From Fischerella sp. PCC 9605 (GTDB lineage Bacteria; Cyanobacteriota; Cyanobacteriia; Cyanobacteriales; Nostocaceae): DNA of 64,000 bases. The position numbers were made by a program, and so were the translations under genes. Location of the stretch: assembly GCF_000517105.1 (NCBI RefSeq), contig NZ_KI912149.1, forward strand, positions 1,878,235 through 1,942,234. The letters are read 5' to 3'. Positions within the stretch are counted from its first letter, which is position 1; every line of letters starts with the position of its first letter. The notes beneath the pieces were generated by a model, which was not told where the DNA came from, searched no databases, and saw nothing but the letters and a program-made list of their open reading frames with translations. This document shows, piece by piece, positions 9,119 through 58,835 of this stretch.

Positions 9119-9127
9119 ACCATTTCC

Positions 9128-9312: not shown

Positions 9313-9332
9313 TAAAAAATCAGGAGTAATTA

Positions 9333-13315: not shown

Positions 13316-13343
13316 TTGAGAAAAATTTGTTTCTCTTGGTGTC

Positions 13344-13400: not shown

Positions 13401-13465
13401 GAAGTTACTGATATTTGGGTTAGTTTCCTACCCCTAATTGCTCAAATCCAAAATCCAAAATTGAT

Positions 13466-13987: not shown

Positions 13988-14152
13988 TGGGGGATCGGGG
14001 ATCGGCGATCGGGGATTGGGGGACAAGGAGGACAAGGGGGACAAGGGGGACTTATCAATTCAAAATTCAAAATTGGTAAGAGAAGGGAGACAAGGGGGAC
14101 AAGTCTAATTCTTTACCTTTCCCCGATCCCCAATCCCCGATCCCCGATCCCT
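13985..14152. repeat. Low-complexity GATCGGGG / GACAAGGGG repeats
   Basis: Direct units of GATCGGGGATCGG and GACAAGGGG followed by inverted-sense CCCCGATCCC units about 100 bases later, so the region can fold back on itself. The same GATCGGGG class is seen after psbC2 (16750-16866). It separates the apcD and psbD3 genes. Confidence 0.7.
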
Positions 14153-14186
14153 AGTTCAAAGTTTTTTAGCAAAAGGATAAGTTCTT

Positions 14187-15248: not shown

Positions 15249-15331
15249 GGGAGCCAGAGCCTGGATGGTGACTCAAGACTAGCCCCATGAAAAGTTTCAA
15301 TTCCCTGAAGAGGTAATACCCCGTGGAAACG
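15150..15331 (+). repeat. 91-bp tandem duplication across the psbD3/psbC2 junction
   Basis: Copy 1 is 15150-15240 and copy 2 is 15241-15331; they differ at only a handful of positions, mostly transitions. The unit covers the last codons of psbD plus the psbC start region. Since 91 is not a multiple of three, psbD3 stops at 15246-15248, just inside copy 2, and the ancestral overlapping stop (CCCCGTGGAAACGCC then CTTTGA) remains unused in copy 2. Confidence 0.95.
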
Positions 15332-16747
15332 CCCTTTGATTCTACAGTTTCAAAACCAAAAGACGAAGTTCAGAAACCTGCTTATATCGTCAATTCACCA
15401 AGCGAAGGCCGTGATGAAGCCTCCACTGGATATGCTTGGTGGGCTGGTAACGCTCGTTTTATTAACCAATCTGGTCGGTTTTTAGGTGCTCATGTTGCCC
15501 ATGCAGGGCTGATTGCCTTCTGGGCAGGAGCGATGTTGCTGTTTGAAGTCGCTCACTTTGTCCCGGAAAAACCGATGTATGACCAAGGTCTGATCTTAAT
15601 GCCTCACATTGCTGCCCTTGGTTTTGGTGTCGGGCCAGGAGGTCAGGTAGTAGATATCTTTCCATTTTTTGCGATCGCTGTAGCTCACCTCATCGGCTCT
15701 GCTGTTTTGGGTTTTGGTGGCATCTATCACTCCCTCAAAGGCCCGCAAAAACTTCCTGGTTTCTTTAACTTTGATTGGAGCGATAAAGATAAAGTCACTA
15801 GCATTTTGGGATATCACCTTATTGCTCTGGGTGTCGCCGCCTTCTTACTTGTCGGTAAGGCGATGTTGTGGGGTGGGTTGTATGACACCTGGGCACCTGG
15901 AGGTGGTGCTGTACGCCTTGTTACCAATCCTACTCTTGACCCCAGAATCATCTTTGGTTATCTGTTCAAAGGTTTTACAGGTGGAGCAGGTAATATTGCT
16001 AGTGTTGACAACCTAGAGGATTTAGTCGGCGGTCATATTTGGATCGGTTCGCTGCTGATACTTGGTGGTATTTGGCACATTGTTACCAAGCCTTTTAAGT
16101 GGACTCACAAAGCCTTTATTTGGTCGGGTGAAGCTTACCTTTCACAAAGCTTGGGTAATGTAGCCGGACAAGCATTTATTGCCACGATGTTCATCTGGTT
16201 TAACAACACTGCCTATCCCAGCGAATTTTACGGGCCGACAGTTGCTGAATCTTCCAATGCTCAGGCGCTAGTCTTTCTCGTGCGTGACCAAAATTTAGGA
16301 GCAAATGTCGCTTCAGCGCAAGGGCCAACAGGTCTAGGGAAATATTTAATGCGATCGCCAACCGGAGAAATTATCTTTGGTGGGGAAACCATGCGCTTTT
16401 GGGATGTCAAAGCCCCCTGGCTAGAACCTCTGCGTGGCCCAAATGGTCTAGATATTGACAAACTTCAGCATGATGTCCAGCCTTGGCAAATTCGCCGTGC
16501 TTCTGAATACATGACCCATGCGCCCATTGGTTCCCTGAATTCTGTCGGCGGCTTAGCAACTGAACTCAACTCCTTTAACTTTGTTGGGCCCCGTGCCTGG
16601 CTAGCTTCTGCACATTTTGTCTTTGCTCTCCTTTTCTTAGTTGGTCATCTCTGGCATGCCGGTCGCGCCCGAGCAGCCGCAGCAGGCTTTGAAAGGGGTA
16701 TAGACCGAGAAGATGAGCCAGTTCTATCCATGCCTCCATTAGATTAG
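15323..16747 (+). CDS. psbC2: Far-red CP43 antenna protein of photosystem II
   Basis: A 474-residue six-helix chlorophyll protein. It starts with GTG at 15323 (reads METPFDST), the conserved psbC start, with GAAGAGG upstream. The lumenal loop keeps GGETMRFWD, which carries the CP43 Glu354 and Arg357 that serve the Mn cluster, followed by [13 protein letters not shown]. Chlorophyll-binding His residues occur in the helices ([33 protein letters not shown]). In ordinary genomes psbC overlaps the end of psbD; here 74 bases separate the two because of the tandem duplication. Confidence 0.94.
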
Positions 16748-17074
16748 TTGGCGATCGGGAATTAGGGATCGGGGATCGGGAATAGGGAATTACTTAATCC
16801 TTAAACTCTCCCTTCCCTTCCCATTTCCCAATCCCCAATCCTCTATCACCAATCCCCGATCTCCCCACTCCCCATTAGGACTATGCAGTATTTGCTAAAA
16901 AATCAAATCATTGACTCCGTGGTTCACATAACTTTGTTGATGTTTTTTTGTGTGATTTTGTTTTTTTGAAAAATTTTTTTCCTGATTCAGCATCAGGTAC
17001 ATACCTACGACTTTTGTTCTAAATAAGAGTTTAATACTCTTGACTTTTGACTTTTGACTAAGGAAGCACAATCA
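16748..17074. other. psbC2-psbB2 intergenic region with GATCGGGG repeats
   Basis: About 330 bases without a gene. The first 120 contain GATCGGGG/CCCCAATCCCCGATC direct and inverted repeats, the rest is AT-rich with long T-runs (16930-16985). Just upstream of psbB2, TGACTTTTGAC units repeat in tandem (17039-17059); a similar TTTTGAC repeat occurs at 37891-37944. A psbB2 promoter probably lies here but I cannot assign -10/-35 boxes. Confidence 0.5.
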
Positions 17075-18607
17075 ATGGGATTACCTTGGTATAGAGTTCA
17101 TACAGTGGTCTTAAATGACCCGGGACGACTTATTGCTGTACACCTGATGCACAATGCCCTTTGTGCAGGCTTTGCTGGTTCGATGCTTTTGTTTGAACTA
17201 GCTTTGTACGATCCTAGCGATCCACTACTCAATCCCATGTGGCGGCAGGGATGTTTTTTAATGCCGTTCGTAGCACGCTTGGGAGTGACAAATTCTTGGC
17301 AAGGCTGGAGCGTTACAGGTGAAACCTTCGCAGATCCTGGTTTTTGGACGTTTGAAACTGTAGCCATAGCTCACATTGTCTTTTCAGGTCTTCAGTTTCT
17401 GGCTGCTTGCTGGCACTGGTTTTACTGGGATCTCGCCACATTCTTCGACTCCAAAACGGGCGAACCAACTTTAGATTTGCCCAAAATTTTTGGCATTCAC
17501 CTATTCTTAGCTGGTTTACTCTGCTTTGGTTTTGGTGCTTTTCATCTCACCGGTATTTTTGGCCCGGGTATGTGGGTTTCTGACCCATATGGGCTAACTG
17601 GTCATGTTCAAGGAGTTGCACCAGTATGGGGGCCAGAGGGTTTTAATCCCCAAAATCCTGGTGGGGTTGTTGCTCACCACATTGCAGCGGGTATTGTGGG
17701 AATTATTGGCGGACTTTTCCATATAGTTGTTCGACCCCCCGAGGTACTGTACAGGGGGTTAAGGATGGGAAATATTGAAACCGTCCTTGCCAGTGCGCTT
17801 GCCACTTTCTTTTTTGCAGGTTTTGTGGCTGCTGGCAGTATGTGGTATGGAACTGCTACCACACCAATTGAACTGTGGGGACCAACTCGTTATCAGTGGG
17901 ATCAAAACTACTTCAAACAAGAGATTGATAGGCGAGTGCAAGCTGGTTTAGACGAGGGTAAAACTCTCTCACAATCTTGGTCAGCTATCCCAGAGAAACT
18001 GGCTTTCTATGACTATATTGGCAATAATCCTGCCAAGGGTGGTTTATTCCGAGTGGGTCGAATGGTCGATGGAGATGGAGTTGCTCAAAGCTGGCTTGGT
18101 CATCTAGTATTCAAAGACCGTGAAGGACGGGAATTGACAGTTCGTCGAATGCCTACTTTCTTTGAAACCTTCCCAGTTGTTCTGACTGACAAAGATGGTG
18201 TAGTGCGTGCAGATATTCCCTTCCAGCGAGCAGAGGCAAAATATAGCTTTGAGCAAACTGGCGTTAATGTCAGCTTCTTTGGCGGGACACTTGATGGTCA
18301 AACGTTTACAGACCCTATGACGGTGAAGAAGTACGCACGTCAGGCTCTACTGGGTGAACCTTTTAAATTTGACCGCACAATCCACAATTCCGATGGAGTT
18401 TTCCGAACTAGTAACCGGGGCTTTTTTGCCTTTTTCCACACTTGCTTTGCTTTGGTGTGGTTTTTCGGACACATCTGGCATGGTTCTCGTGCCATCTACC
18501 GGGATGTATTTGCTGGCATTGACCCAGAACTTGATGAACAGGTAGAGTTTGGTGTTTTCCAGAAAGTGGGAGATACAACCACACGTAAGAAGCAAGCAGT
18601 TATCTAA
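17075..18607 (+). CDS. psbB2: Far-red CP47 antenna protein of photosystem II
   Basis: A 510-residue six-helix core antenna protein. It starts at ATG 17075 ([18 protein letters not shown], the invariant CP47 N-terminus) with AAGGAAG upstream; the in-frame TTG at 17054 is rejected because it precedes this N-terminus. Conserved segments include [47 protein letters not shown] and the C-terminal [21 protein letters not shown]. The lumenal loop is full length. It is followed by a 12-bp-stem hairpin and psbH2. Confidence 0.94.
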
Positions 18608-31084: not shown

Positions 31085-34052
31085 TTAACCAGCGCAGCTA
31101 GTTGATCTCTGCCAATAACTGTAAGTCGTGACAGTAGGCGCACTAGCAACGAGGATTACCTCCCCTTTGGAATTTTTTACCCACCCAGCAGCTTCAATAA
31201 TTTTTAGTGGTGTGGGATTAGGAGAATTTTTTACAACAACTCGACTGTTACCATTGTTATGGTAACGAGTGAGTGTTACCCAATCAACTTGGGGTGTGTC
31301 ACTGTTAAAAGCAACTCTTGGATTAAGTGGCAAGCCACCACGTCCGGTGACTACAAATTGGCTTTGATTTTTAGCAGTAGTTACTTGGCAGCCTTGGGCA
31401 ATTTGCGGTTCACTTAGTTCGGTTGGCAAGTTTATTAATCCTCGATTGGGGTTAATATCGGGAGTGTTGATGGTTATTTGACCATTTAAATTTGGGTTTG
31501 TTTGAGAAATTGCCGTAATGTCGCTAGTTACTAAGCTTTGAGGGTCTAGTTGAGTTGGGTCGTTGTTTCCCAAAAGTCTCACAAGGTCTTCTCGACTACG
31601 CGGTGTTAGACCAAAAATACCAGTAGCGTTGATTGTGACTATTCCCCCTTCACCATCGTAGGCATTGGCAGTGATGTCGTTGTTTTCATCAGGGATGGTA
31701 ACGATAAAGCCATTAGGGGCATTGATGGTGATGTTACCCCCGTCTCCACCCTGTTGGTTAGTGCCTGCGGTAGCAGATATCCGACTGTTACCGTTTAGTA
31801 ACAATAAATTTGGGTTTTGTAACGAAATATTGCCGCCATTACCGGATGCCGTTTCAGCGGTAATTTCCCCAAGGTTGTCCAAGCGAATGGAACGAGATCG
31901 TAACTGAAGGTTGCCTGCACTCCCTGACCCTTGAGAGCGAACAAACAAGCCACTGTTAGCAGATTCATCCTCAACAAAATTGTTACCAATTCGGACAAAC
32001 CGTTTAAAGGGAGCACTGCCAGATATAGTGACCCTATCAGTAGTATTAACTGTGATATTACCTGCAAAGCCACTGCTGCCTGTGAAAGCATTGGTAAGGA
32101 TTTGTCCACCATTAACAGCTTCCAAAGTATTTGCATTCACCGTGATATTGCCAGCATTTCCCTCACCTATAGTGCGGGCATCTACAACTCCATTGTCTGC
32201 TACCCGAACGAAAAGCACTGGTATCAATAGTGATGTTTCCTCCCTGTCCCTCATTAGTGCTACGTGAAAATAATCCACTTGCTGTTCTATTAATGCCAAC
32301 TCCAAAAACATTAACTGCATCGGAAGCATTAACCCATATCTGTCCACCCTTTCCTTGACCAAAAGCAGCAGTAGATATCTGCGCCCCATTTCCCACAATT
32401 AACTGCCCAGTAGTAATTGTTAAGTCTCCGGCATTGCCAACATTTTCTGTTTGAGTAAATAAAGCGCTAGGAATTTGCTGCCCATTCGCTAATGTTCCTG
32501 TTCCCTGCAATTCCACCAAATCACTAGCAGTCACCAACAAATTTCCTCCCTGCCCTTGATCGAGAGTACGAGTTAATATTTGTGCCCCATCCCGGACACT
32601 CAAGCGACTGGTCTGAATTGTTAAGTTCCCAGCACCTTTAGCACCTAAAGTTTGAGTAGATAAGCTGCTACCAGCACCAACTAGTTCCACGGAATCGGCA
32701 GCGGTTACAGATAAATCTCCCCCCTGTCCCTTGCCTAGAGTAGCAGTTGATACTCGCGCTCCATTCTGAGAACTTAACCGTCGAGTGGTAATCGTCAAAT
32801 TTCCAGCATCTCCCTCACCTTGAGTTTGAGTAAACAAGCCGCTTTTTGTTTTTCCTGCTAGTTCCACAAACTCCGAGGCTCGAATGCTAAGATTTCCTCC
32901 CTGTCCCTTGCCTAAGGTACCAGCTCTTATCCTTGACTCATCTCCCTGGATACTCAACTGCCCGGTTTCAATTGTTACGTCTCCCCCAGATCCAGTCGCT
33001 TCTTCTAAAACATCGGCAGTAATCTGCGAATCTTCAGTGAGAGTAACCCCCTTTATTGTGCGGATAAACACTTCTCCACCAGTCTCTGTACCTTGTGTGT
33101 CGGCAAAAATCAACGAGCCTTGAGTTAAAGCCAAATTATTGCCCTGAATCTGAACATCACCACCGCCAGCACCGCTAACATCGATATACGCTCCGTCTTC
33201 CAACCGAATATTACCAAAATTATTTACAGAGCCGTACCCCAGTACCCAATCGTTATCTTTCTGGTTTAAGCTCACTTCTCCAACAGCAGCTACACTACCT
33301 AGTTCAACCCGTCCTCCTGAAGCTGTCAGATTCGGTTGTTCTAAAGCCGCTTGCCGATCTCCCTGCAACGTCATATCACCGCCCACTAGTGCCAAAGTTT
33401 TACCAGGTTGCACTTTTAGGTCAGATCCCTGTACGCTAATACCTCCTGCTATTTCCCCAAATTGCAAGCCAATGGGAACACTCACAGTTAGCAAAGGTGT
33501 ACTTTGGGGAGCGATCGCACTAAACAAAGTGCCATCTGCAAACTTGAGGTGACTTGCTGTACTTGCAATCAATGAACCCTTGATGTCTAATTGGGCATTT
33601 GGTCCAAAAATAATTCCATTCGGATTGAGAAAAAACAGGTTAGTCGAGCCATTGGCTGTAATCAGACCGTCAATGATAGAAGCAGATTTACCCCTGACGC
33701 GATTGATGATGTTTTGAATATCTGGAGCATTGTTGAAGTTAGCCTGAGTGCCAGTGGGTATAGAAAACTGCTCAAAACTGTGGAAAAGATTACTGCCAGC
33801 TTGAGTTCCTCCTTCAATAGTCCTAATATTCTCCTCTAATTTGACAGTGGAATTATTGGGTAGAGTGTCATCAGGGGTAATTTGAGCAAAGGTGCAATCC
33901 CAAGAATAGATGTATGCACTACTAATTGATAAAGAAATTACTAATTTTAAAAGCCAGTAAGAACCGCGTAAGTTTTCAGCCATTTTTTCTGAGTAGATAA
34001 TATTTTTGGCAAAGGGCACCCAGAAACAGGAGAATCCATCGTCGTTCTTCAA
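31085..34052 (-). pseudogene. Two-partner-secretion exoprotein (haemagglutinin-type), broken by a frameshift
   Basis: Upstream part 34052-32163 and downstream part to 31085 lie in different frames but join seamlessly: NITIDTSAF then VRVADNGVVDARTIGEGNAG. The break is in an A4 run at about 32211-32214 (T4 on the coding strand), where removing one base restores about 965-988 residues. MAENLRG (33983) is the likely start, followed by a signal peptide and the TPS domain (NIINRVRGK, ANGSTNLFFLNPNGIIFGP, KGSLIASTASHLKF), then beta-helix repeats (GQGGNL, GNAGDLTITT). The cognate TpsB transporter is not in the window. Such proteins are secreted adhesins. The frameshift may be real decay or a sequencing error. 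Confidence 0.85.
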
Positions 34053-41693: not shown

Positions 41694-42045
41694 TTTTCTT
41701 CGCCCCCTAAATCTTTAGATAACCACCCACCGAATAGGGGGAAAAACTTTCTTAGAAAGTATTTCCATTTATCACGATTCTCGCAACACTAAAAGTAGGG
41801 TGTTCTTATTGCTTAAACAATGCTTTTTCTAAGGTTTACTTTCTCAATATTAGGAGCTAAATAATTAATAAACAATGCAAAAATTTTAGGTAGATACCCG
41901 CAATTTTTTTGATTTTAATGATTCATTGAATGTGTTCTATTTATCTGAAGCATATGAACTTTAAAACGACAAAATTGAGCGTTGTCTTTAACAACGCCCA
42001 AAGTTTAAGTGGACTATTTTTGCAATTAATTAATAGCCCTAAATT
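41694..42045. other. Spacer before the HlyD gene
   Basis: 352 bases without a gene. AT-rich; includes CTTTCTTAGAAAG (a short dyad near 41747-41759) and long A/T runs. An internal promoter for the exporter genes could lie here, but no boxes are convincing. Confidence 0.45.
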
Positions 42046-43146
42046 TTATACTGAAACATTTTTTAGATGTTCCTGCATCCAATCAAATCTTTTTCCAGCC
42101 AGTGCCATGCTATCTAAGATATTTAACTCCAATTCATCTTCATATTCAATATTTTCATCTAGTGGCTGACCTTGGCTATAAACTCGCCGACTATAACCCA
42201 ATCGGGTGTACATTCCCTGCAATCTATTGGAAAGCAAAGTAGCAATCACTCGATAAAAACGAGATGCAAATCCTACATCTTGCTGCAATTTTGCTGCTAG
42301 TTGCTGCCGGGAAATTGATAAAACAAGGGTATCTTCAACTGTCTTGATAGTTGCAGAGGGTAGACGACCATCGATAAAGGGTGTTTCCCCTACGATTTCG
42401 CCTTTCGATAATCTTGCTATCTCTCGACTGATAATTTCGCTATCCTCGATCGCTGCAAAAGCACGAGCCAAGGGATTGCGCTCATCAAGAGAAATAGACA
42501 GTGACATTGTTCCACCTAAGAGAATATACAGCGCATCTACAGGGCCTCCTTCACGGATAAGTACTGTGTTAGCAGCAATTTTTTGCTGAGTTCCACACGC
42601 CATCATCCAATCGATGTCACTACCGTGCAATTCCCCTAAAACACACAGCACATCCTTTAGTGGTTGACCTTGTGCGAGGTTACTACGACCGAATTGATTG
42701 ATGATGCTTTGCAATCTGTCTGAGAGCATAATCGCGATCGCTCGATAAAAGCGCGTCGCAAAACCTACATCATGCTGCAATTTAACTGCTAATTGTTGTT
42801 GGGAAATCGACATCACAAGCGACTTTTCTACAGCCTTAACTGTAGTGGCGATCGGACAGATACCAACAAAGGGAACTTCTCCAACTACCTCGCCGCTTGA
42901 TAACCTAGCAATTTCCCGACTTGAAGATTCACTACCCTCTATGACTGCAAAAGCACGAGCTAAAAAATTATTATCAGATTGGGATACATTAACTGTTAAA
43001 GTTCCATCTAGTAGGATATGTAGGGAATCGGCAGCTTTTCCTTCCTGGATGAGTACAGTACCAACAGGTATTTCTCTTTGGCGACCTGTCGCAATCATCC
43101 ATTCTATATCACTGTTAGTTAATTCTTTGAGCAAAACTTCTGTCAT
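42046..43146 (-). CDS. Tandem cyclic-nucleotide-binding protein associated with bacteriocin transport
   Basis: A 366-residue protein from ATG 43146 (MTEVLLKELTNSDIEWMIATG); an ATG at 43176 is less likely. It contains two copies of a cNMP-binding domain (about 5-150 and 180-320), each with IEWMIATG/IDWMMACG, PVGTVLIQEG/AANTVLIREG, REIARLSSGEVVGEVPFV/REIARLSKGEIVGETPFI and KLQHDVGFATRFYRAIA/KLQQDVGFASRFYRVIA. This doubled form is known as a component next to NHLM exporters (TIGR03896-type). No HTH, so it probably gates the exporter or another protein rather than DNA. The C-terminus carries an acidic tail. Confidence 0.9.
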   Translation of the reverse strand: MTEVLLKELTNSDIEWMIATGRQREIPVGTVLIQEGKAADSLHILLDGTLTVNVSQSDNNFLARAFAVIEGSESSSREIARLSSGEVVGEVPFVGICPIATTVKAVEKSLVMSISQQQLAVKLQHDVGFATRFYRAIAIMLSDRLQSIINQFGRSNLAQGQPLKDVLCVLGELHGSDIDWMMACGTQQKIAANTVLIREGGPVDALYILLGGTMSLSISLDERNPLARAFAAIEDSEIISREIARLSKGEIVGETPFIDGRLPSATIKTVEDTLVLSISRQQLAAKLQQDVGFASRFYRVIATLLSNRLQGMYTRLGYSRRVYSQGQPLDENIEYEDELELNILDSMALAGKRFDWMQEHLKNVSV

Positions 43147-43236
43147 AACTTCAACTTTCCTATGTTCTATTAACAAAAACTTGGAGAAAAATCTCAGAGG
43201 CGCACCAGAACGCAGAGAAAGTTTGAAACTCTATAA

Positions 43237-44400
43237 TTACAAACTTTTCTGTAATTTCTCTAGAGTTTTCTGAATGCGAATATTTGCCTCTGCTGAAGCT
43301 AATTCTTCTAAGGTTAAGTAGGTCAAGCTCATTAACATTAGAGGTTGAATATTGCTGTTGATCAACTCGTCTACATGTTCACTATCAAAGCACTCCAAAT
43401 TCTCTGCGGCAGTTTTCAGCAATGCTTGTAGAATCTTAAAAGCGCCATCTGAAAGCGGTGGCTGACCTCGGTAATTTTCCAGCCTCCCTCCTTCTCGATA
43501 ATTGGGAAATGACTCCAATCCCAGAAAGCGCAAAAACCAATCGGCTCGATAGTACCCACAAGCAGCAACAATCCCCCTGTAGTCAGCAATTAGTTCATCG
43601 AGCATATTATTTCGCATCGAGTTAAACATGCGACGCGTGAAGTAGTGGGTACATTCATGTTCCAGCCGAATTGTTAGGGAATAGCGCAGCCATTCGGTTT
43701 CTTCAAGTCCCATATCACTGGCTGAAACATTGCTATAGGGGCCATCACTTAAAATAATCAACCTATCCTGATAAAGCTCTTTTTGGGATTTAATTCGCTG
43801 AAATTCTTCCTTCCATCTACTTTCGGAACAATTACCAGCATTGCGAGTTTCCCATTGTTGGCGAAAGGCGCGAATTCTGTCCCAGTTATTAAACCCACTG
43901 ATCGTGCAGGCTCCCATAGAAGCAGAAACTGGTAATGGTTCATTCCGCATAGCCAGCGCCTGTACCAGAGAAACAAAGTCCTCTCGGTTCCCAGCAAGTA
44001 AAACCGGAATTGCTCCTGCGAGGCTTTGATGCACAAACAATTGCAGTTTATCTGGTTGTTGCAAAACCAAACCAGTCGCCTCAGCCATCCCATCCACCGA
44101 CATCCCTTTACGAGTAGCAGCATTATAGGGAATAGTTTGACTGATACTTGCTTTGATCGGAAAGCGAAACTGTACCAGTCGCTGTTTCAGGGTTTCAAAT
44201 GCTCCTATATCTCTAGCTTCAAGAGCGTATTTTTCCCAAGCCGAAACATGGGCTTCTGGTGGAAGCGGAAAATTAATGGGATGGTTGAAGTTGTTGCAAT
44301 TAAAAACGTTATGATTGTATGCCAATAATTCCTCTACTTCTGAAGCATTGGCTCCGAAGTAGGCAAGAACATTAGCACGAAATAATTTTTGATTGAACAT
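43237..44400 (-). CDS. Putative HExxH metalloprotease-like protein of the lanthipeptide locus
   Basis: A 387-residue protein I do not recognise by name. A zinc-peptidase signature is visible: HECTH at 248-252 (His-Glu-x-x-His), followed 16 residues later by DELIADYRG (268-276), where the second Glu or Asp could be the third ligand, as in gluzincin-like enzymes. The N-terminus reads MFNQKLFRANVLAYFGA; no signal peptide or membrane segment. It lies between the MinD-like and the cNMP-binding genes, all on the same strand, so it is probably part of the peptide system. It might trim or degrade the peptide inside the cell; inferred only. Confidence 0.65.
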   Translation of the reverse strand: MFNQKLFRANVLAYFGANASEVEELLAYNHNVFNCNNFNHPINFPLPPEAHVSAWEKYALEARDIGAFETLKQRLVQFRFPIKASISQTIPYNAATRKGMSVDGMAEATGLVLQQPDKLQLFVHQSLAGAIPVLLAGNREDFVSLVQALAMRNEPLPVSASMGACTISGFNNWDRIRAFRQQWETRNAGNCSESRWKEEFQRIKSQKELYQDRLIILSDGPYSNVSASDMGLEETEWLRYSLTIRLEHECTHYFTRRMFNSMRNNMLDELIADYRGIVAACGYYRADWFLRFLGLESFPNYREGGRLENYRGQPPLSDGAFKILQALLKTAAENLECFDSEHVDELINSNIQPLMLMSLTYLTLEELASAEANIRIQKTLEKLQKSL

Positions 44401-44530
44401 GGTTAGTAGTTAGTGGTTAGTGGTTAGTAGTTAGTAGTTAGTAGTTCATGGAGAAAATCATGAACCATCAACAACTAACACCCAAAAACTAACAATTAAC
44501 AAATGACCAATGACTAATGACTAATGACTA
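44401..44530. repeat. Heptamer STRR spacer
   Basis: TTAGTGG/TTAGTAG units (44404-44446), then AACTAACA-type units and a GACTAATGACTAATGACTAA run (in part 44511-44529). It fills the gap between the HExxH gene and the MinD-like gene. Confidence 0.75.
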
Positions 44531-45302
44531 AACCAGCAATCTGCTCAGTAATTCCTTTCATTGTTTTACTGATAGGATGCTTGGAGTAACGCAGACAGAA
44601 TATTCCCTTGCTCCCTAGCTGCACCATCTCTTCTGACAAGGGCAAAATACCTGCTACTGAAATGTTGTAGGTTTTTTCTACCTGTTTTTGCAAGTCTGTA
44701 AAATCAAACGCTGGTAGCGCTTTATTAACTACTAACAGCATTTTTGGTACTTTCAGCTTACGAGCTACATCGACTGTCACAGCGGTTCCCTGGAAGTCTT
44801 GACTGTCTGGACGTAAGATGACTACCAAAACATGAGAGATACCAATAGAAAGTAAGGTTTCTTCATTAAGACCAGGGTGAGTATCAATGAACAAGTAGTC
44901 TAGTTTAAGACAACGGATGAGTTCCTGAAAACCATCGTTAAGTCGGACTACATCATATCCCTCGCGCAGAACTCTGGCTATTTCACCAGCCTTAATACTA
45001 GAGGGAATCAAGTAAAGATTACCTTTTACTACACCTGTTTCCCCTGACTCTGCTATCAGAGTATGACTGACATCGTAGGCAGTGTCCTTAATATTACAAC
45101 GTCCCCAGAGGTAGTCATTGAGGGAATGGTTAATTTTTTCTTCGTTTAGACCGAAGAGAACATGAATTCCTGGTGACTGAATGTCAGTATCAATAATGCC
45201 TACACGTTGTCCTCGGCATGCCATAGTAGCAGCTAGATTGGCTGTTAAGTTGGATTTACCAGTTCCACCACGGAAAGAGTGAACGGCGATAATTTGTGTC
45301 AT
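44514..45302 (-). CDS. MinD/ParA-like ATPase of the lanthipeptide locus
   Basis: A 262-residue SIMIBI-class ATPase. The deviant Walker A motif is HSFRGGTGKSN (residues 8-18): the signature Lys of KGGxxK[S/T] is Arg11 here, while Lys16 is kept. A switch segment GIIDTDIQSPGIHVLFGL (about 35-52), Walker B-like LDYLFIDTHPGLNEE and VVNKALPAFDF are present. No C-terminal amphipathic MinD helix is evident. MinD-like ATPases are recurrent companions of NHLM genes but their role is not known to me; positioning of the exporter or of the synthetase at the membrane is a reasonable guess. Confidence 0.85.
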   Translation of the reverse strand: MTQIIAVHSFRGGTGKSNLTANLAATMACRGQRVGIIDTDIQSPGIHVLFGLNEEKINHSLNDYLWGRCNIKDTAYDVSHTLIAESGETGVVKGNLYLIPSSIKAGEIARVLREGYDVVRLNDGFQELIRCLKLDYLFIDTHPGLNEETLLSIGISHVLVVILRPDSQDFQGTAVTVDVARKLKVPKMLLVVNKALPAFDFTDLQKQVEKTYNISVAGILPLSEEMVQLGSKGIFCLRYSKHPISKTMKGITEQIAGLVISH

Positions 45303-45418
45303 AGTTTACCTCGTAATATAATTCAGGGGAAAGGGTAAGGGGTAGCCCTGTCAAGGTGGGTTCTTAGTAGAGAAGACTATTTTCCTGTTTGTGTCCCTTC
45401 GCTGCGCTCGAGGGCAAG

Positions 45419-45470
45419 CTTAGTGTCTTGGTGTTTCCAGAATTCTTTTTTTCACCACCAAGACACTAAG
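45419..45470. repeat. Perfect 15-bp hairpin, CTTAGTGTCTTGGTG class
   Basis: CTTAGTGTCTTGGTG (45419-45433) pairs perfectly with CACCAAGACACTAAG (45456-45470). The same family of hairpin follows apcE2 (13344-13400). It lies between the permease-like gene and the MinD-like gene and could affect read-through between them. Confidence 0.8.
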
Positions 45471-45524
45471 ACACCAAGAAAAATCCATTCGGTGATAATG
45501 TCTTCCCTCTTTTCCCCTTCCCCT

Positions 45525-48128
45525 TCAAAATCTGAACTTCAAGCAGCACTCATCGTTAACTAGAGGAAGCAAAACTCTTCCACTGGATAGCTTTAAATCA
45601 AACTGCATATTCTTGTCTCCACTCTCGATTTCTACAAGTGCGGGCAAATTTTTGAAGTCATTTCTACTGGAATTGCTTGTATGTGTCCATACTCTCAGCT
45701 CTTTTTCTCGCTTGGTTGGTAGATGGAAGATAGCATATTGCAGTGACTGAAGTGATGGAATTTCGACAGTAGAAGCTTGGTGATGTTGTTCACCCTCAGC
45801 ATATCCCAGTCGCACCTCTGCTATCTTCGGTTGTCCACCAGCAGCAATTTTAAAGAGCGATCGCCCTCCTGGTTGCTCAGTCAGCAGTTCTACTACCACA
45901 CGGGAAGCAAAAGCTCCATAGCGCTTCATCACAAAGGTGGTTGCTAGTGATAGCAAAGCGATGCTCAATGCACACAGACGCGCCACAGGATTTTCCCAAA
46001 TGAACAAACCGTGAATAAACAAGATAGCTAAAAACAGACTGTATATACCGACGCTGAAAACTGGATGATTCAGGATACCGAAGACTACTCCCGGTATCAG
46101 TTCGCCTTTTTGCCGGCTAGAAACTAACAGGAGAATTGGGAAAATACCACCTACAATTGTGTTGCCAAGTACACCCGCAAATGCTAATATGCCAGCGAAT
46201 GATTGTGCATCAGTAAAGATAAGCCATTCTGTCAAAATTAAGACTAATATTAACGGACTAATAGATAGGAAAAAGCGACGCTGGGAAAGTAAATTAGATA
46301 GGCATTTAAATGCTATGGGTCTTTTGACAAGATTACTAACCCGCCTGGAATTGTGTGTAGTATTTATGACATCTGTCTTTAACCCTCCCTCATAGACGAG
46401 AATCATTGGTGAGGTGATTTGCACGCAGACGCTATCTTGATTAGGCGATCGCACTGAGAGCATGAGGTGAATGTTCCACTTGCGTAAGTCCGGAAACTCC
46501 TCAAGTAGTTCTTTAATCTCCCAGCGCTCAGCAACTGTTATCTCTACATGATGTATGTTCCCGCTCGACTGGATATCTAAACGAAATTTTGGCTGATTCT
46601 CTTCCAATCCTAGATAAGTTAAACCAAAACGAGATACGCAACTGGGATCGCCACAAGGGTGCAATATCAATGTTCCCTGTTGACGGTGTAGCATCAAAAC
46701 GGGTCGAGGTTGAGCAGGCAACCATTCTTTTGCTAAGTTGAGCAAGAGACTGGAACTACGCAGCCAAGCCATTCCCAACAGAAGAATGACTAAAACTATT
46801 CCCAAGACTGGAACGACCGGGCCAATTTGAATAGCTAGTGGCTCTAGAACTGTGCCTGACTGTCCTGCTAACAATTGCGGTGGAATAGCTCCGTTGACTG
46901 CCAATACCCAAATGCAAAAAAGAACAGTTAAGAAAGCAGTTCCCGCCACGCTACCCCAGATCAGCGATCCAGCACTAGGATCGCGCGGGAGTATCACTTT
47001 CGCACACTCACCTACATATACATGCCCAAAGTAGAGCATGAGGCCAACACCAAAAACCCGTTGTAGCATCCAAGGTTGGAAAGGATGGCGAGCATGAAAA
47101 GGCAAGTTGATGTATAAAAGGTTGTCTAGTTGCAGGTGGCGAAATGCCAAAAGTGAGAGGATGAGCAGCAAGCTAACGTTGATAGCTGCAAGCAATATCA
47201 TCACAGCAACAGTGAAACTGAGCGATCGCCGTGAAAGCAGATACAATCCAGCTAAGAAAAGCAATATCGCCCATAGTGCTGCTGGTATGTGTGTTAGATT
47301 TGCCATAGTAGCTGACAAACCGATGTAACAAGCCAAAGCTATGAGAAAAACACGGATGCCTACAGCTATTGATAGTATAAAAGAACCAGCGTTTCCTAAG
47401 TAATTAGATACTAATTGTTTGATAAAAGCATTGCCATAACGGAAGTCGCCACTGCGACCGATCGCTTCAGCCATGCAAGCCATAGTCAAGATATTAACAA
47501 TGCCGATGATGATTACAAAAGCAACAGTAGCCAAGGGGCCAATATCGACTACAGCAATGGGCAAGGCTAAGAAAGCTTGAGGTAGACCTAAAGCAACAGT
47601 TACCAAAGAGGCAAGCCAGAAAGGAGGGAGAGACTCAAGCCGGTGTGCGATCGCCGCGAAAGTCCATCGTAACTGTTCTGTTAAAGGTAGTCTGGATGCA
47701 AAGATTTTCAATAGCTGTCTTCTGTATAAGCGGAGGTAAGCCACTTGTACTGCTTTCTCATCTAAACCTAAAGCTGCCCGGATGTTAGGGACTACTTCAT
47801 AGGTGAAAGCGTACTTCTCACCGAGAGCATGAGCAATAGCGGCTTTGAGTTTGGGATTTTCTGGCACTAGAGGTGTCCATTGCAGGGCATGGCGTTCCAA
47901 ATGCTGGATCGTGGGATGAAATGGTGGTGCGTGACCTGAAGCAAAGGCTTCCAAGTAAGCCAGATCGCGCTCATTCGCAGCTTGCTCTGTGAGGGAAAAT
48001 TCCACCAGCGATCGCGCTACTATCTGCGCTGTTCGACTCTCAATCAAAAACAATAGTGTATTTGCTCGTCTAGCAGGTAAACCCGCCAATACTTCTTCAC
48101 GCGAGATTAGTTCTTCGTCATTTGTCAT
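45525..48128 (-). CDS. Large permease-like membrane protein of the lanthipeptide locus
   Basis: An 867-residue protein. The first 170 residues are soluble (LISREEVLAGLPARRANTLLFLIES, helical). Then about ten or eleven membrane helices (about 172-470) resemble the amino-acid permease (APC/LeuT) fold, a soluble beta-rich domain of about 150 residues follows (HRQQGTLILHPCGDPSCVSRFGL on), then three or four more helices (about 625-745) and a C-terminal soluble beta domain. The fused soluble parts are unlike ordinary permeases. It could import an amino acid or peptide, or sense one. It follows the Cache receptor gene and precedes the MinD gene. Confidence 0.75.
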   Translation of the reverse strand: MTNDEELISREEVLAGLPARRANTLLFLIESRTAQIVARSLVEFSLTEQAANERDLAYLEAFASGHAPPFHPTIQHLERHALQWTPLVPENPKLKAAIAHALGEKYAFTYEVVPNIRAALGLDEKAVQVAYLRLYRRQLLKIFASRLPLTEQLRWTFAAIAHRLESLPPFWLASLVTVALGLPQAFLALPIAVVDIGPLATVAFVIIIGIVNILTMACMAEAIGRSGDFRYGNAFIKQLVSNYLGNAGSFILSIAVGIRVFLIALACYIGLSATMANLTHIPAALWAILLFLAGLYLLSRRSLSFTVAVMILLAAINVSLLLILSLLAFRHLQLDNLLYINLPFHARHPFQPWMLQRVFGVGLMLYFGHVYVGECAKVILPRDPSAGSLIWGSVAGTAFLTVLFCIWVLAVNGAIPPQLLAGQSGTVLEPLAIQIGPVVPVLGIVLVILLLGMAWLRSSSLLLNLAKEWLPAQPRPVLMLHRQQGTLILHPCGDPSCVSRFGLTYLGLEENQPKFRLDIQSSGNIHHVEITVAERWEIKELLEEFPDLRKWNIHLMLSVRSPNQDSVCVQITSPMILVYEGGLKTDVINTTHNSRRVSNLVKRPIAFKCLSNLLSQRRFFLSISPLILVLILTEWLIFTDAQSFAGILAFAGVLGNTIVGGIFPILLLVSSRQKGELIPGVVFGILNHPVFSVGIYSLFLAILFIHGLFIWENPVARLCALSIALLSLATTFVMKRYGAFASRVVVELLTEQPGGRSLFKIAAGGQPKIAEVRLGYAEGEQHHQASTVEIPSLQSLQYAIFHLPTKREKELRVWTHTSNSSRNDFKNLPALVEIESGDKNMQFDLKLSSGRVLLPLVNDECCLKFRF

Positions 48129-48240
48129 TGGTCATTGGTTATTTGTTAGTAGTTAGTAGTTAGTAGTTAGTGGTTAGTGGTTAGTGGTTAGTGGTTATTC
48201 TCCCACTCTCCTCATCTCCTACTCTCCCCCTCTCCCCCTC
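48129..48240. repeat. Heptamer STRR spacer
   Basis: TTAGTAG units (48146-48168) and TTAGTGG units (48169-48197), followed by a CTCTCCCC pyrimidine run. Lies between the receptor and the permease genes. Confidence 0.8.
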
Positions 48241-49637
48241 TCCTTGAGGGATTTTACTTGAGTTTGCAATCGTTGATAGTACTCAGTTTCTGTTTCGCCT
48301 GTACTAACAGCAGAAGCTCTAAGTTTCTGAATCTTTCTCTGTAATTCTTGAAAGTGTTCATTATCAGTAATCTCCGCAAACTCTCTAGCTCTCTTGGTTT
48401 CGTCAATCTCAATCTTTAGCTCAATTACCTGCTGTTTCAGCTTTTGTTCTCTATCCCTAACCTTATCAGACATGTGTAAAAAGACACCTACTAGCTGTCC
48501 CATGTCATCATTCCGGGAAGGCAGCTCAAGCAACGGCTCAGAATTAAAATTCCCCTGCTCTAGTGTTTGTGCTACGGCTGTAAGGGCGCGAATTGGTCGG
48601 GAAATGCTTCGTGCAAGGAGCAGTGCAATGATTGCGGTAATTCCTCCTACCATCACAACAATACTGCCGTGCTGCCAAATGAGGCGATTTAAAGGAGCTT
48701 TAAATTCTGTTTTGGGTTGACTAACCCCCAATACCCAAGGTTGCACTTGCAAAGGTGCGAAGCCAACTATCCGGGACATCTGCTCACTTGGAAAATGATA
48801 GCCGCTGTGACCCGGCTCTTTTGCTTTCACCATCAACTCCAACTCTGGAATATTCAAGCTTTTAATCTCATCAAGTCCATAGCGTCTATCAGTTACGACC
48901 TGTTTAAGAGTTTCTGGTGGCAAAGGGTTGAGGCTATGGTAAAGGAGAGATTGATCGGGATGGCTGATGATTACTCCATGCTGGTCAATGAGGAAGGCGT
49001 AGCTTAAGGAGCCTACTTGCAATGCATTAACTATTGCCCAGATATCTTCTCCTCTAATCTTGAGTACCGCCACTCCGACAATTTCGCCTTTGGGCGATCG
49101 CACAGGGTGAGAGAGGAAAAGTCCTGGTCGTTTAGTTGTTGTACCCACTAAGATACTAGAAACGTGAGAGTGTCCCTGAATTGACTGTTGAAAGTATTCA
49201 CGGAAAGCATAGTTTTGACCAACAAATGATGGATCGGTGGAAGCGAGACACTCACCGTCTTTATCCATGAAAAAGACAGCATCAAAGTCGGGGTTAGAAT
49301 GAAAGACATTTAATAGTGTTTGTTGCAAGTTGGGGCGGAAAGCTTCTCGCTTTGCAGATGTTGTAGCAGCAAGGAAACTCACCACACCTGCATCATTACT
49401 GACTTGCGTTAAAACGCGCTGAATATCGATAATTAGTTGGTCAAGGCGGCTAGCAGCACTGGTAGCTGATAATTCTAGTTTGCGGTATTCACCAGCCTCC
49501 AGACTTTCTAAACTTTGTTGCAAATTGTAGTAGGCAGTGAAGCTCATCGGCGCGATCGCCACAGCAAGCAAAGCTGCTGAAAGTTTAGCAGCAATAGACC
49601 AGGCAGGCGGGTAAAGTAACCGATGTAAGCGCTTCAT
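48219..49637 (-). CDS. Cache-HAMP receptor without an output domain
   Basis: A 472-residue membrane sensor. Helix 1 (about 15-35), an extracytoplasmic double-Cache domain (about 45-315) with FMDKDGECLASTDPSFVG, GLFLSHPVRSPKGEIVGVAV and DQHGVIISHPD, helix 2 (about 330-350), HAMP (ISRPIRALTAVAQTLEQGNF) and a coiled coil (about 395-465). No histidine kinase, methyl-accepting or cyclase domain follows. The signal must pass to a separate protein by the coiled coil. It lies directly downstream of lanM, so a ligand outside the cell may control peptide production or release. Confidence 0.87.
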   Translation of the reverse strand: MKRLHRLLYPPAWSIAAKLSAALLAVAIAPMSFTAYYNLQQSLESLEAGEYRKLELSATSAASRLDQLIIDIQRVLTQVSNDAGVVSFLAATTSAKREAFRPNLQQTLLNVFHSNPDFDAVFFMDKDGECLASTDPSFVGQNYAFREYFQQSIQGHSHVSSILVGTTTKRPGLFLSHPVRSPKGEIVGVAVLKIRGEDIWAIVNALQVGSLSYAFLIDQHGVIISHPDQSLLYHSLNPLPPETLKQVVTDRRYGLDEIKSLNIPELELMVKAKEPGHSGYHFPSEQMSRIVGFAPLQVQPWVLGVSQPKTEFKAPLNRLIWQHGSIVVMVGGITAIIALLLARSISRPIRALTAVAQTLEQGNFNSEPLLELPSRNDDMGQLVGVFLHMSDKVRDREQKLKQQVIELKIEIDETKRAREFAEITDNEHFQELQRKIQKLRASAVSTGETETEYYQRLQTQVKSLKERGRGGE

Positions 49638-53492: not shown

Positions 53493-53870
53493 ATGCACGA
53501 AGAACTGAAAAAAATCGTCTCTCAGGCAATGAACACTCGGTTTGAGTTTGAGCAGAAGCTCATTCAGCAGGCTTGGGAAAATGAGACCTTCAAGCAAGAA
53601 TTGCTCAGCAATCCCAGAGCAGTTTATGCGAGAGAGTCAAAAGAAGAACTACCAAAAGAGCTTGAAATTGAAGTAATCCAGGAAAGTGCAAACAAGATCT
53701 ACTTAGTACTGCCAAATAACCCGGCTCCAGCAACTACTAGTGGAGAATTATCTGAGGCAGATCTAGAAACAGTAGCAGGCGGTAGTTGCAGGTATAGTTC
53801 TAGAGAGTACGAAGAAAGCTGTTCTTGGTTTAGTGCTAGTAAAAAGCGTAGTGCTGAAGGATTAGTGTAA
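53493..53870 (+). CDS. lanA: NHLP-leader lanthipeptide precursor
   Basis: A 125-residue peptide. The leader (1-97) resembles a nitrile-hydratase alpha-subunit leader: FEQKLIQQAWENETFKQELL, NPRAVYARESKEELPKELEI, VIQESANKIYLVLPNNPA; it ends ELSEADLETVAGG with Gly96-Gly97. The core (98-125) starts SCRYSSREYEES, then CSWFSASKKRSAEGLV. It has two Cys (99 and 110), eight Ser and no Thr, so at most two lanthionine rings. The RBS AAGGAG is ideal. A divergent LanM and the C39 exporter gene make it the natural substrate. Neither structure nor activity is known. Confidence 0.92.
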   Translation: MHEELKKIVSQAMNTRFEFEQKLIQQAWENETFKQELLSNPRAVYARESKEELPKELEIEVIQESANKIYLVLPNNPAPATTSGELSEADLETVAGGSCRYSSREYEESCSWFSASKKRSAEGLV

Positions 53871-54089: not shown

Positions 54090-55625
54090 ATGAACCCTAC
54101 AGATAAATTGTCTACGTTCACACCTAGCCAAGATGTGGGATTAGTTGAAAGTCAAGGTGCTATAGCTATTAATGCTGACAAAGCTCGCGAACTCTTTGGT
54201 GTGGATGGAACTGGTGTCACAATAGGTGTAATTTCGGACAGCTTTAATAATCTTGGTGGAGCAGAAGCTGATGTTGCTAGTGGTGACTTGCCATCAGGTA
54301 TTAAAGTGCTAGAAGATGCTCCTGGTGTGGGCGAAGATGAAGGTCGTGCCATCATGCAACTTATTCATGATGTGGCTCCTGGTGCTAACTTTGTATTTCA
54401 TACATCAGGCCCGGGTCAACCTGAAGAATTTGCTGATGCCATTTTTAAGTTAGCAGATGCAGGAGCTGACATCATAGTATCTGATGTAGGTATCATCCAT
54501 GAACCTATGTTCCAAGATGGGATTATAGCTCAGGCTATTGATGAAATATCGTCTAGACCTGGTGACTCTGCTGTCTCCTTTTTTGCTTCTGCTGGTAACG
54601 AAGGTCGTCGCTCCTATGAAAGTTCCTTTAATCCTAGTGGTGTGATTGAACCGACTTCAGGGGGAGAGTTCCATGATTTTGAACCAGGATCTGGAGTAGA
54701 TACATTCCAGAGCATTACAATTCCCTCAGGTGCTGGAATTGATATCTCTTTCCAATGGGACTCTCCTTTCGCTTCGGTTAGTGGTGGTGCTGGTTCTCTC
54801 AACGATCTCGATATTTTCTTGTATGACAGTTCCGGTACTAAGGTTTTGGTTAGCAGCACCGAGTCTAACATTGGTAACGATCCAGTAGAGGTTCTTACCT
54901 TTAACAATGAAGGACAGACAAGTGAATTTAACCTAGCAATCTCAAAAAAAGGTGGTTATGACCCTGATTTGATGAAGTACATAGTGTTTGGAGGAGGCAA
55001 AAACTTTAAAATTAACGAGTTTGACACTGCTAGCGGAACTATTTTTGGGAATCCCAATGCTGAGGGAGCAGCGGCAGTTGGGGCAATTTCATACCTTGAA
55101 ACTCCAGCATTTGGAACAGATCCAGGTGAACTACGGTTTTTTTCTTCGGCTGGCGGTACACCAGTTTTGTTTGATCAAGATGGCGATCGCTTGTTCATTC
55201 CCGATTATTGGAGGAGCAAGCCTGCATTTGTAGCTCCAGATGGCGTTAATACCACTTTCTTTGGAGACGACATTCCTGAAGATTCAGACAATTACCCCAA
55301 CTTTGCTGGAACATCAGCTTCAGTCGCATATCCAGCGGGAGTGGCCGCTCTAATGCTTGATGCTAATCCCAATCTCTCTGCTGACGAAATCTACTCAATT
55401 CAGGAAGCAACTGCTCTTGACATGGACGATCCAAGCACTCCAGAATTTGACATCGGCTTTGACTATGCCAGTGGCTACGGATTGATCCAGGCCGATCGAG
55501 CGTTAGGTTTAGTCACAACACCTTTCCCCTGCCACAATTCTGCATTAGATACTTTGGCTTTTGCTAACCCAGGAGCCTCTTTTGGCTTGAGTTCATCAGG
55601 GAGTAACAAAGGTATCCTATATTAA
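54090..55625 (+). CDS. Atypical subtilase (S8/S53-like peptidase)
   Basis: A 511-residue serine peptidase-like protein. Catalytic candidates are Asp50 in GVISDSF and Ser in FAGTSASVAYPAGVAALML. At the usual His position the sequence is GEDEGRAIMQLIHDVAPGA, giving Glu84 in place of the HGT His, a sedolisin-like arrangement. ASAGNEG gives the oxyanion Asn. No signal peptide; the N-terminus reads MNPTDKLSTFTPSQDVG. A PKD/CBM-like insert (about 190-300) is present. It lies 219 bases after the precursor, on the same strand, and may process the exported peptide or its leader, but it lacks a visible export signal. Confidence 0.8.
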   Translation: MNPTDKLSTFTPSQDVGLVESQGAIAINADKARELFGVDGTGVTIGVISDSFNNLGGAEADVASGDLPSGIKVLEDAPGVGEDEGRAIMQLIHDVAPGANFVFHTSGPGQPEEFADAIFKLADAGADIIVSDVGIIHEPMFQDGIIAQAIDEISSRPGDSAVSFFASAGNEGRRSYESSFNPSGVIEPTSGGEFHDFEPGSGVDTFQSITIPSGAGIDISFQWDSPFASVSGGAGSLNDLDIFLYDSSGTKVLVSSTESNIGNDPVEVLTFNNEGQTSEFNLAISKKGGYDPDLMKYIVFGGGKNFKINEFDTASGTIFGNPNAEGAAAVGAISYLETPAFGTDPGELRFFSSAGGTPVLFDQDGDRLFIPDYWRSKPAFVAPDGVNTTFFGDDIPEDSDNYPNFAGTSASVAYPAGVAALMLDANPNLSADEIYSIQEATALDMDDPSTPEFDIGFDYASGYGLIQADRALGLVTTPFPCHNSALDTLAFANPGASFGLSSSGSNKGILY

Positions 55626-58025: not shown

Positions 58026-58835
58026 TCAGTTGTGTTTGGTGTTTGATTGAGTACGTTGTGCGTTTCGCCAAGTTTGAGGAGTCATTCCTAAGCTTTGGCG
58101 AAACTGACGAAAGAAACATCCTACATAGCGATAGCCCACTGCTTCGGCAATTTGCTCGACTGACTGGTTAGTCTCTTGCAGTAGAGAACAGGCTGCTGAC
58201 ATCCGGCGCTGGATAATCCAACGATGCAGTGGTTGTCCCGTTTGGCGTCGTACTAGGTCGGTTAAGTAAGCTGCGGAGTAACCAACCGCCTGGGCAACAT
58301 CACGTAGCCCAATTGGTTGATGATAATTAGCTTCAACAAAGTTGAATACTTCTTGCAACTGAGGGCTGTAAGGAAAGAGCGATTGAGAAGTTACCGCTTC
58401 CTCAATTTCGCTATTTTCTGGTGCTGGACTTTGCTGTGATTGAATAGCACACCAGCTTGTCAGGACTGTTTCTTTTTCTAGGCGGACAGCGATCGCCCGC
58501 AGTAATTCCTTGAGTTGCAAAGCCTGGGTAAGGTTGTCGCCTGCCTTCAGATCCATACCTTGGCATCGCTTGGATTTGCTAGCTTTAGCAGTGAGAAAAA
58601 TCAAGGGAATAATTGCTTTGAGAGAGCCTTGATGCAAATTGGTTAGAACGGCGTAACCATTGAGATTTGGCATTCTAATTTCGCAAATCACGAAATCTGA
58701 TAGCTGTTCTCCTATCTTCTTTGTACCGACAAAATCATTTTCTTCAGAGATTTGATCTAATCCTTCTTCCTCCAGGCATTTTAACAAGATTTTGCAGACT
58801 TGTTCTTCATCTGAAATTGTCAAAACTTTTGTCAT
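58026..58835 (-). CDS. AraC-type response regulator with non-canonical receiver
   Basis: A 269-residue protein. The receiver-like domain (1-118) keeps ISDEEQVCK and FLTAKASKS, but the phosphoacceptor position in VICEIRMPNLNG is Glu52 instead of Asp. Asp-to-Glu changes can mimic a phosphorylated, constitutively active state, so it may be phosphorylation-independent. The AraC HTH pair (about 165-265) is intact: IGLRDVAQAVGYSAAYLTDLVRR and VEQIAEAVGYRYVGCFFRQFR. It converges with the oxygenase gene and has no adjacent kinase. Targets unknown; the NHLP locus is adjacent. Confidence 0.85.
   Translation of the reverse strand: MTKVLTISDEEQVCKILLKCLEEEGLDQISEENDFVGTKKIGEQLSDFVICEIRMPNLNGYAVLTNLHQGSLKAIIPLIFLTAKASKSKRCQGMDLKAGDNLTQALQLKELLRAIAVRLEKETVLTSWCAIQSQQSPAPENSEIEEAVTSQSLFPYSPQLQEVFNFVEANYHQPIGLRDVAQAVGYSAAYLTDLVRRQTGQPLHRWIIQRRMSAACSLLQETNQSVEQIAEAVGYRYVGCFFRQFRQSLGMTPQTWRNAQRTQSNTKHN

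Follow-up and report, generated by a model that had tools for sequence, protein, structure and literature searches.

In Fischerella sp. PCC 9605 (contig NZ_KI912149.1), five genes on the minus strand separate lanM, which encodes a class II lanthipeptide synthetase (TIGR03897; 49729–52980 (−)), from the HlyD gene of an NHLM-type peptide exporter (TIGR03794; 40245–41693 (−)). Coordinates throughout are positions in the 64,000-nucleotide stretch of this contig that was analyzed, hereafter the window. From the lanM side, the five genes encode a 472-residue dCache_1-HAMP membrane sensor (48219–49637 (−)), an 867-residue transporter-like (permease-like) protein with no family assignment (45525–48128 (−)), a 262-residue MinD-like ATPase (44514–45302 (−)), a 387-residue HExxH protein of family DUF7005 (PF22541; 43237–44400 (−)) and a tandem cNMP-binding protein of family TIGR03896 (cyc_nuc_ocin; 42046–43176 (−)). 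A preliminary description had proposed that these genes form an undescribed accessory module for sensing and positioning around peptide export, and all five open reading frames (ORFs) were confirmed, with exact coordinates. As set out below, the module recurs at NHLM export loci, and the pair formed by its sensor and its MinD-like ATPase seems to be an example of a poorly known type of signaling, in which sensors of many kinds share one short tail and partner with this ATPase.

The remaining members of the locus are standard ones. The HlyD protein, exporter 1 with its C39 peptidase (TIGR03796; 37946–40258 (−)) and exporter 2 (TIGR03797; 34780–37662 (−)) scored 504, 1200.5 and 1062.8 bits, respectively, above NCBIfam cut-offs of 156.2, 853.3 and 709.4 bits. 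Beyond lanM, an ORF at 53493–53870 (+) encodes the precursor of a ribosomally synthesized and post-translationally modified peptide (RiPP), with an NHLP leader ending in ETVAGG ahead of the core (TIGR03793, 1.3e-25, 89 bits with a cut-off of 50.9). The window therefore shares the exporter trio, the NHLP precursor and LanM with the NHLM/NHLP and Nif11 export cassette, whereas the sensor, the transporter-like protein, the MinD-like ATPase and DUF7005 are extra. The paper on this cassette names the exporter trio as its export genes and does not mention MinD or TIGR03896 in its main text (Haft et al. 2010, PMC2887384). Judged by its family match, the cNMP protein already belongs to a named NHLM-associated family, the 'bacteriocin-type transport-associated protein' TIGR03896 (1.1e-118, 396.3 bits with a cut-off of 161.05), of which it is a full member with no difference, so that for this gene the module was not undescribed.

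Relatives of the transporter-like gene were found in 3 of 194 genomes drawn from the phylum, in one of 72,556 plasmid records and at 19 loci in a collection holding one genome per species. We compared 24 loci with this gene (the window and L005–L027, with two nearly identical pairs, L005/L014 and L008/L015). The five genes kept the succession Cache, transporter-like, MinD, DUF7005, cNMP without a break in 20 of them, a count that, like those of neighbors, fusions and glutaminase genes given below, may miss genes because the ORF picker is greedy and drops real ORFs in GC-rich DNA. Two of the four exceptions are cut by a contig border (L009, L024), one has no DUF7005 match (L016) and one has no cNMP gene (L020). 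An NHLM exporter gene was within view at 16 of the 24 loci; at the other eight there was no exporter in the fetched stretch, mostly because the stretch or the contig ends. The recurring gene order is not due to chance, and the data support the five genes as an accessory module that is conserved at NHLM export loci. LanM was near the module in 9 of 24 loci, radical SAM genes were near it in three (L005, L013, L017) and a SagB/TOMM gene in one (L005). Because the neighboring modification chemistry varies in this way, we conclude that the module follows the exporter and not the modification.

By the criterion of the preliminary description, the genes should not occur apart from NHLM exporters in most genomes, which was borne out for one half of the module and not for the other. 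To the 194 genomes of the phylum we added 184 of the class (334 in total, with the overlap, inferred from handle numbers, counted once). NHLM HlyD exceeded its cut-off in 54 of these genomes, and DUF7005 exceeded its cut-off in 15, two of which hold fragments only; NHLM HlyD was present in all 15. A member of the MinD family was found in 12 of the 13 genomes with full-length DUF7005, within 10 kb in 11 of them. The transporter-like gene, DUF7005 and TIGR03896 are the exporter-linked half of the module. MinD genes were likewise enriched at exporters, lying within 10 kb at 14 of the 35 NHLM HlyD loci of MinD-bearing genomes, compared with 0.2 expected, and being absent from that distance at 21. 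In a MinD tree of 69 rows, one gene being counted twice (L041 = L168), the NHLM label changed six times (four or more by starred branches), with gains and losses not told apart and the bootstrap not settled; we set the labels ourselves, by synteny at truncated loci and by placement among relatives for L201, a 3.8-kb stretch that does not reach an exporter. The six changes mean that the exporter link was gained or lost several times, and the enrichment of MinD genes at NHLM loci occurs in several separate MinD lineages. However, 8 of the 40 MinD genes in the phylum draw had an NHLM HlyD gene at a distance of 10 kb or less, and MinD genes beside a glutaminase gene were found in 16 genomes of the loci set (Pfam-confirmed in three, the others by BLAST). 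Because MinD genes and the tail sensors described below lie mostly away from NHLM exporters, we conclude that the other half of the module, the sensor and the ATPase, is part of a broader system that is found also at exporters, a result more interesting than the export-linked module itself.

The window sensor matched dCache_1 (1.6e-24) and HAMP (9.8e-11), and the family scans found no kinase, MCP or cyclase domain after the HAMP domain. Sensing is a fair reading of this domain content. The preliminary view of a receptor without an output domain holds insofar as no catalytic output domain is present, but the protein ends in a conserved C-terminal tail, residues 399–441 (48315–48443 (−); genome search match G000:C7:1926552-1926677), with the consensus LKxQVxxLxIEIDExKxxxQVAEITxxxxFQxLQxKAxxLR over ∼43 residues; I411, F429 and L432 are among its conserved positions. 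A second half-repeat, ETETEYYQRLQTQVKSLKER (residues 448–467; 48237–48296 (−)), was present in all aligned module sensors except that of L020 (n = 23). A profile of the Cache proteins of the module also matched the C-termini of proteins encoded beside MinD genes away from NHLM loci, which carry Tll0287-HAMP, CHASE2, FHA-GAF or cNMP domains; the FHA-GAF tail protein of one genome (G019) adjoins an NHLM operon (L149). A whole-genome search with the tail added PAS, Cache-HAMP-PAS, CHASE2-kinase, cyclase-kinase and HisKA/receiver proteins. The tail is common to dCache-HAMP proteins and at least ten other sensor architectures, and it is likely the output of the sensor.

Genomes with the tail were nearly always genomes with the MinD family (thresholds E≤1e-3 for the tail and E≤1e-40 for MinD). 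In the 194-genome draw, 29 genomes had both, none had one alone and 165 had neither; in the 184-genome draw, 76 had both, three the tail only, one MinD only and 104 neither, and for the 140 genomes new to this second draw the corresponding numbers were 60, three, one and 76. The spread of tail and MinD is patchy inside families (9 of 25 genomes in the window's own family), and the pair is therefore not the mark of one clade. In two genomes the partners are joined in a single HisKA-HisKA-receiver-tail-MinD chain (G319, 749 residues; G283, 720 residues). Distances among tails correlated with those among MinD proteins in a Mantel test (r = 0.72, 0 of 5000 permutations; 37 linked pairs outside the window's clade, in which the same gene is again counted twice), a correlation that could arise from shared history alone. 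The pairing extends to plasmids picked by MinD alone and searched in six frames. On a Deinococcus plasmid, the gene for a HAMP protein with the tail lies 0.6 kb downstream of MinD and immediately precedes another, divergent MinD-like gene, and a Rhizobium plasmid encodes the tail in a gene overlapping the MinD start; these matches rule out that the tail is confined to cyanobacteria. The association and the tail-MinD pairing are both well supported.

In two cases a tail sensor and a RiPP leader with a double-glycine site are joined in frame as one protein. The Cache-HAMP tail sensor of G167 (L133 7607–9418, a locus that matches Nostoc sp. UHCC 0926 plasmid pn1) has an N-terminal Nif11 domain ending in ELDAIAGG, and a cNMP tail sensor of G197 (L230 4241–5434) has a C-terminal NHLP leader (TIGR03793, 3.9e-23) ending in DAVAGG and followed by a short core. 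Such leaders are read by the C39 exporter and by the modifying enzymes, and the fusions therefore suggest physical contact of tail sensors with the RiPP machinery.

The interpretation of these results that we find best, with even weight for and against it, is that the five genes are an export-control module: through its tail, the sensor would control a MinD-like ATPase that acts as a switch and gates the NHLM exporter. The Cache-HAMP protein would sense a periplasmic ligand, and the signal would leave it through the ∼43-residue tail and its half-repeat, not through a kinase or chemotaxis domain, to reach the MinD-like ATPase, whose gene is the second one downstream. As the peptides of MinE, ParB and McdB do with their ATPases, the tail may bind the nucleotide-bound MinD dimer and alter its ATP state. 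The ATPase would then act on a co-encoded membrane client, namely the HlyD/ABC exporter and with it the APC-like transporter protein, TIGR03896 and DUF7005, and peptide release would follow an outside signal. In a broader proposal, whose chances of being right we put no higher than those of its being wrong and no lower, the window is an instance, in the gating of lanthipeptide export, of a distinct class of bacterial signal transduction. In this class at least ten unrelated sensor types (among them Cache, Tll0287, CHASE2, FHA-GAF, PAS and cNMP proteins, phosphorelay receivers and Ser/Thr kinases) would carry an interchangeable ∼43-residue tail that drives a dedicated Arg-type MinD-like ATPase, which in turn would switch co-encoded clients such as peptide exporters, transporter-like proteins and glutaminase.

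Several observations weigh against the export-control interpretation. Two genomes have DUF7005 and NHLM genes, the one far from its MinD gene (G129) and the other with no MinD match (G257), and 24 of the 54 NHLM genomes have no MinD match at all, so that export in general needs no MinD-like protein. A terminator-like hairpin lies between the cNMP gene and hlyD (41975–42001 (−)); known from a consensus match only, it is the longest of the scan, with 12 pairs followed by TTTTG, in a stretch where 15 such sites were found and 10.6 expected, and it argues against assuming a single transcript for module and exporter (a promoter scan of the same stretch, with 18 sites and 20.4 expected, was uninformative). 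The tail occurred without a MinD match in G205, G243 and G255, and MinD without the tail in G223. For the NHLM-linked MinD genes of G224, G256, G109 and G119 there is no tail within 10 kb on the contig, and those of G284 and G316 have their closest tail at ∼12 kb; at these six loci the sensor would need to work from another place in the genome. No tail was found by six-frame search of a Streptomyces plasmid whose MinD is 37% identical. At all three non-cyanobacterial loci (Deinococcus, Rhizobium and Streptomyces) a SpoIIE phosphatase gene is near MinD, and SpoIIE phosphatase is possibly another partner of the ATPase; partner switching may then be an older link of this ATPase. The genomes are also related and not independent, and the P values for tail-MinD co-occurrence are thus too small. 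Finally, most of the tails used to build the tail model came from beside MinD genes, so that linked matches arise partly by construction, whereas unlinked and non-cyanobacterial matches do not. Unlinked tails are therefore the fair test. In the first draw, 22 of 49 tails were >10 kb from any MinD gene; they came from 13 genomes, all 13 of which bear MinD, and nine genomes that hold only such unlinked tails nevertheless have MinD.

The MinD-like protein of the window matched ParA (2.2e-20), AAA_31 (1.3e-15), CbiA and PDB entry 1hyq (5e-12). Its Walker A motif is FRGGTGKS (45252–45275 (−)), with arginine (R11) in place of the signature lysine of the deviant Walker A motif. This arginine is found in 69 of 69 aligned rows (68 distinct genes), and [FY]RGGTGKS in 67; McdA and BcsQ also lack the lysine (PMC9178275). 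With the ParA/MinD (A/D) ATPases (MinD-MinE, ParA-ParB, McdA-McdB) the MinD-like protein shares the deviant Walker A motif, a dedicated partner sequence and genes that adjoin those of its clients. In known partners, a charged, N-terminal peptide makes the contact with the ATPase dimer (PMC10241942), and by analogy the tail could be the C-terminal counterpart of these peptides. Unlike in the A/D ATPases, here an arginine occupies the signature position, the C-terminal tail is swapped among many sensor types, the partner can be fused to the ATPase, and a membrane-targeting end appears to be missing as judged by model coverage: the match to the TIGR01968 MinD model stops at position 238 of 261 and does not reach its C-terminal end, and no such end was apparent by eye in 18 MinD C-termini.

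These features bear on the idea, already present in the preliminary description, of a positioning apparatus, in which the MinD-like ATPase would place or cluster the exporter with the sensor as partner or landmark. PpfA-TlpT and ParC offer the precedent of a ParA-like ATPase working with receptors, in their case on chemoreceptor arrays (PMC9178275), and MinD genes are indeed enriched at exporter loci. However, in the Pfam tables the scanned tail sensors have no MCP signaling domain and fall into many unrelated classes, unlike in the chemotaxis systems, and the tail is C-terminal, or internal in fusions, where the known partner peptides are N-terminal (PMC10241942). Soluble neighbors such as glutaminase are hard to picture as positioned cargo, and the universal arginine and the incomplete match to the MinD model lend no support to this idea, which stands as a rival of rather low probability.

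A second alternative is that the sensor-MinD pair has the transporter-like protein as its sole client, for example in nutrient or signal uptake, and that the exporter is a mere neighbor outside its control. The 867-residue protein had no Pfam or NCBIfam match at E≤0.01 and no sequence relative in PDB. Its predicted structure (predicted local distance difference test, pLDDT, 59.1) contains an N-terminal helical part, a LeuT/APC-like bundle, and soluble domains rich in beta structure, both internal and C-terminal, and it gave 35 Foldseek matches at E≤0.001 (best 1.3e-5), comprising amino-acid, auxin and Nramp-type transporters and one KimA; the model thus points, with low confidence, to an APC/LeuT-type transporter that also has soluble domains. 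Elsewhere the pair adjoins a SulP-STAS-cNMP transporter (L239 by Pfam, L243 as a BLAST relative) or weakly TLC/MFS-like proteins below curated cut-offs (L143, L226), and the hairpin before hlyD would also fit a unit that excludes the exporter. However, G167 retains the rest of the module and the exporter (L133, Cache-MinD-DUF7005-cNMP-HlyD-ABC1-ABC2) with no relative of the transporter-like gene detected, and in nine further genomes (G019, G109, G119, G210, G224, G256, G283, G284 and G316) MinD stands by NHLM genes, again with no such relative detected. Together with the RiPP leaders fused to tail sensors, this makes a pair dedicated to the transporter-like protein quite improbable.

BcsQ, a fixed structural subunit in cellulose secretion, resembles the MinD-like ATPase in being itself MinD-like, in the arginine at the signature position and in its ties to cellulose production and to second-messenger signaling. 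It differs in the catalytic lysine, which the family described here retains (RGGTGKS) and BcsQ replaces by threonine (RGGVGTT), and we know of no tail sensor for BcsQ. That the ATPase is likewise a structural subunit of the secretion machine, with the sensor doing a separate job, finds a parallel in BcsQ, with its arginine at the signature position (RGGVGTT) and a link to cyclic di-GMP signaling (PMC9178275), but is very improbable given the 21 HlyD loci with no MinD gene within 10 kb, the 24 NHLM genomes with no MinD match, and the co-occurrence and fusions that tie MinD to sensors mostly away from exporters.

The DUF7005 protein of the window is a clear family member (PF22541, 7.7e-172, 571.6 bits with a gathering cut-off of 27). 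Its HECTH motif (H248-E249-x-x-H252; 43645–43659 (−)) and the downstream E269 are invariant in 17 of 17 diverse members, which suggests from sequence that DUF7005 is a metal enzyme. Foldseek found no match for its model (pLDDT 66.8) at E≤0.001, and its VIA Z scores were at most 3.6, with some HExxH peptidases among the rows. Alpha-ketoglutarate HExxH enzymes occur in RiPP clusters (PMC12636437), and PDB searches with DUF7005 gave no link to them, no direct comparison of the sequences having been made.

Searches of the open-access literature found no paper mentioning DUF7005, TIGR03896 or the motif strings KGGVGR, FRGGTGKS, YRGGTGKS and RGGTGKS. Among open-access titles and abstracts, those on MinD-like proteins with such sensors contained nothing on this system, the tail itself not being searchable by words, and a search for MinD-like proteins with lanthipeptides or Nif11 likewise gave nothing on it among the matches listed. 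If the signaling class proposed above exists, ParA/MinD-type ATPases would be outputs of environmental sensors, beyond their use as positioning devices, and cyanobacterial receptors without an apparent output would gain a testable partner that docks through a short, portable tail. RiPP clusters that are silent in culture could then be explained, in that release may need a signal seen by the Cache sensor.

Away from exporters, MinD genes have varied neighbors. The glutaminase gene, which is possibly a nitrogen-signaling client, often stands between MinD and the tail sensor (loci include L233, L234, L235, L238, L240–L242, L244 and L247–L249). A ∼343-residue gene in this position had been taken for a radical SAM gene on the basis of L143, and the family scan identified it as glutaminase in L233, L240 and L248. 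Radical SAM genes beside MinD were confirmed by Pfam in L143 and L224, with BLAST relatives in L213, L214 and L237; radical SAM and a weakly TLC-like transporter also occur together beside MinD, and outer-membrane efflux proteins are also among the neighbors. A second, divergent MinD-like gene is found near a tail sensor and a transporter-like gene in L226 (8389–9156) and L224 (2039–3142). On the Deinococcus and Streptomyces plasmids (L226, L228), the MinD relative follows a SpoIIE phosphatase gene within an AGE epimerase-STAS-GlgX-STAS cluster, which in Streptomyces is followed by GlgB; these settings are possibly a glycogen-control version of the system. A phage search with the Deinococcus MinD gave no match. 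The gammaproteobacterial contig L024 (3,181 bases) may be misbinned; in the phylum to which its genome belongs, none of the 95 genomes searched had the MinD family, a negative of little weight because the search had no positive control.

Other features of the window lie outside the module. A subtilisin-like protein (S8-type by inspection; 54090–55625 (+)) follows the precursor, and its relatives adjoin precursors in L006, L007, L008, L010, L012, L015 and L021. A regulator with a receiver domain and an AraC-type domain (by inspection; 58026–58835 (−)) has relatives in many related loci. The gap between the transporter-like gene and minD (45300–45525 (−)) contains a stretch resembling part of a repeat (caccaagacacta...), which we take to be similar to the dispersed repeats of Nostoc genomes. 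Two ORFs that overlap in different frames (31085–32398 and 32163–34052) together encode what is by inspection a haemagglutinin-type secreted protein (31085–34052 (−)), possibly split by a frameshift. At 1212–18607, a phytochrome-like kinase and two response regulators are followed by psbA-, allophycocyanin-, ApcE-, psbD-, psbC- and psbB-like genes, which by ORF inspection we presume to be a far-red light photoacclimation cluster. Within it, an Rfam IsrR match (144 bits; 15776–15962 (−)) is antisense to the psbC-like gene (15323–16747) and not to isiA, and may reflect either the common ancestry of the psbC-like gene and isiA or a real antisense RNA.

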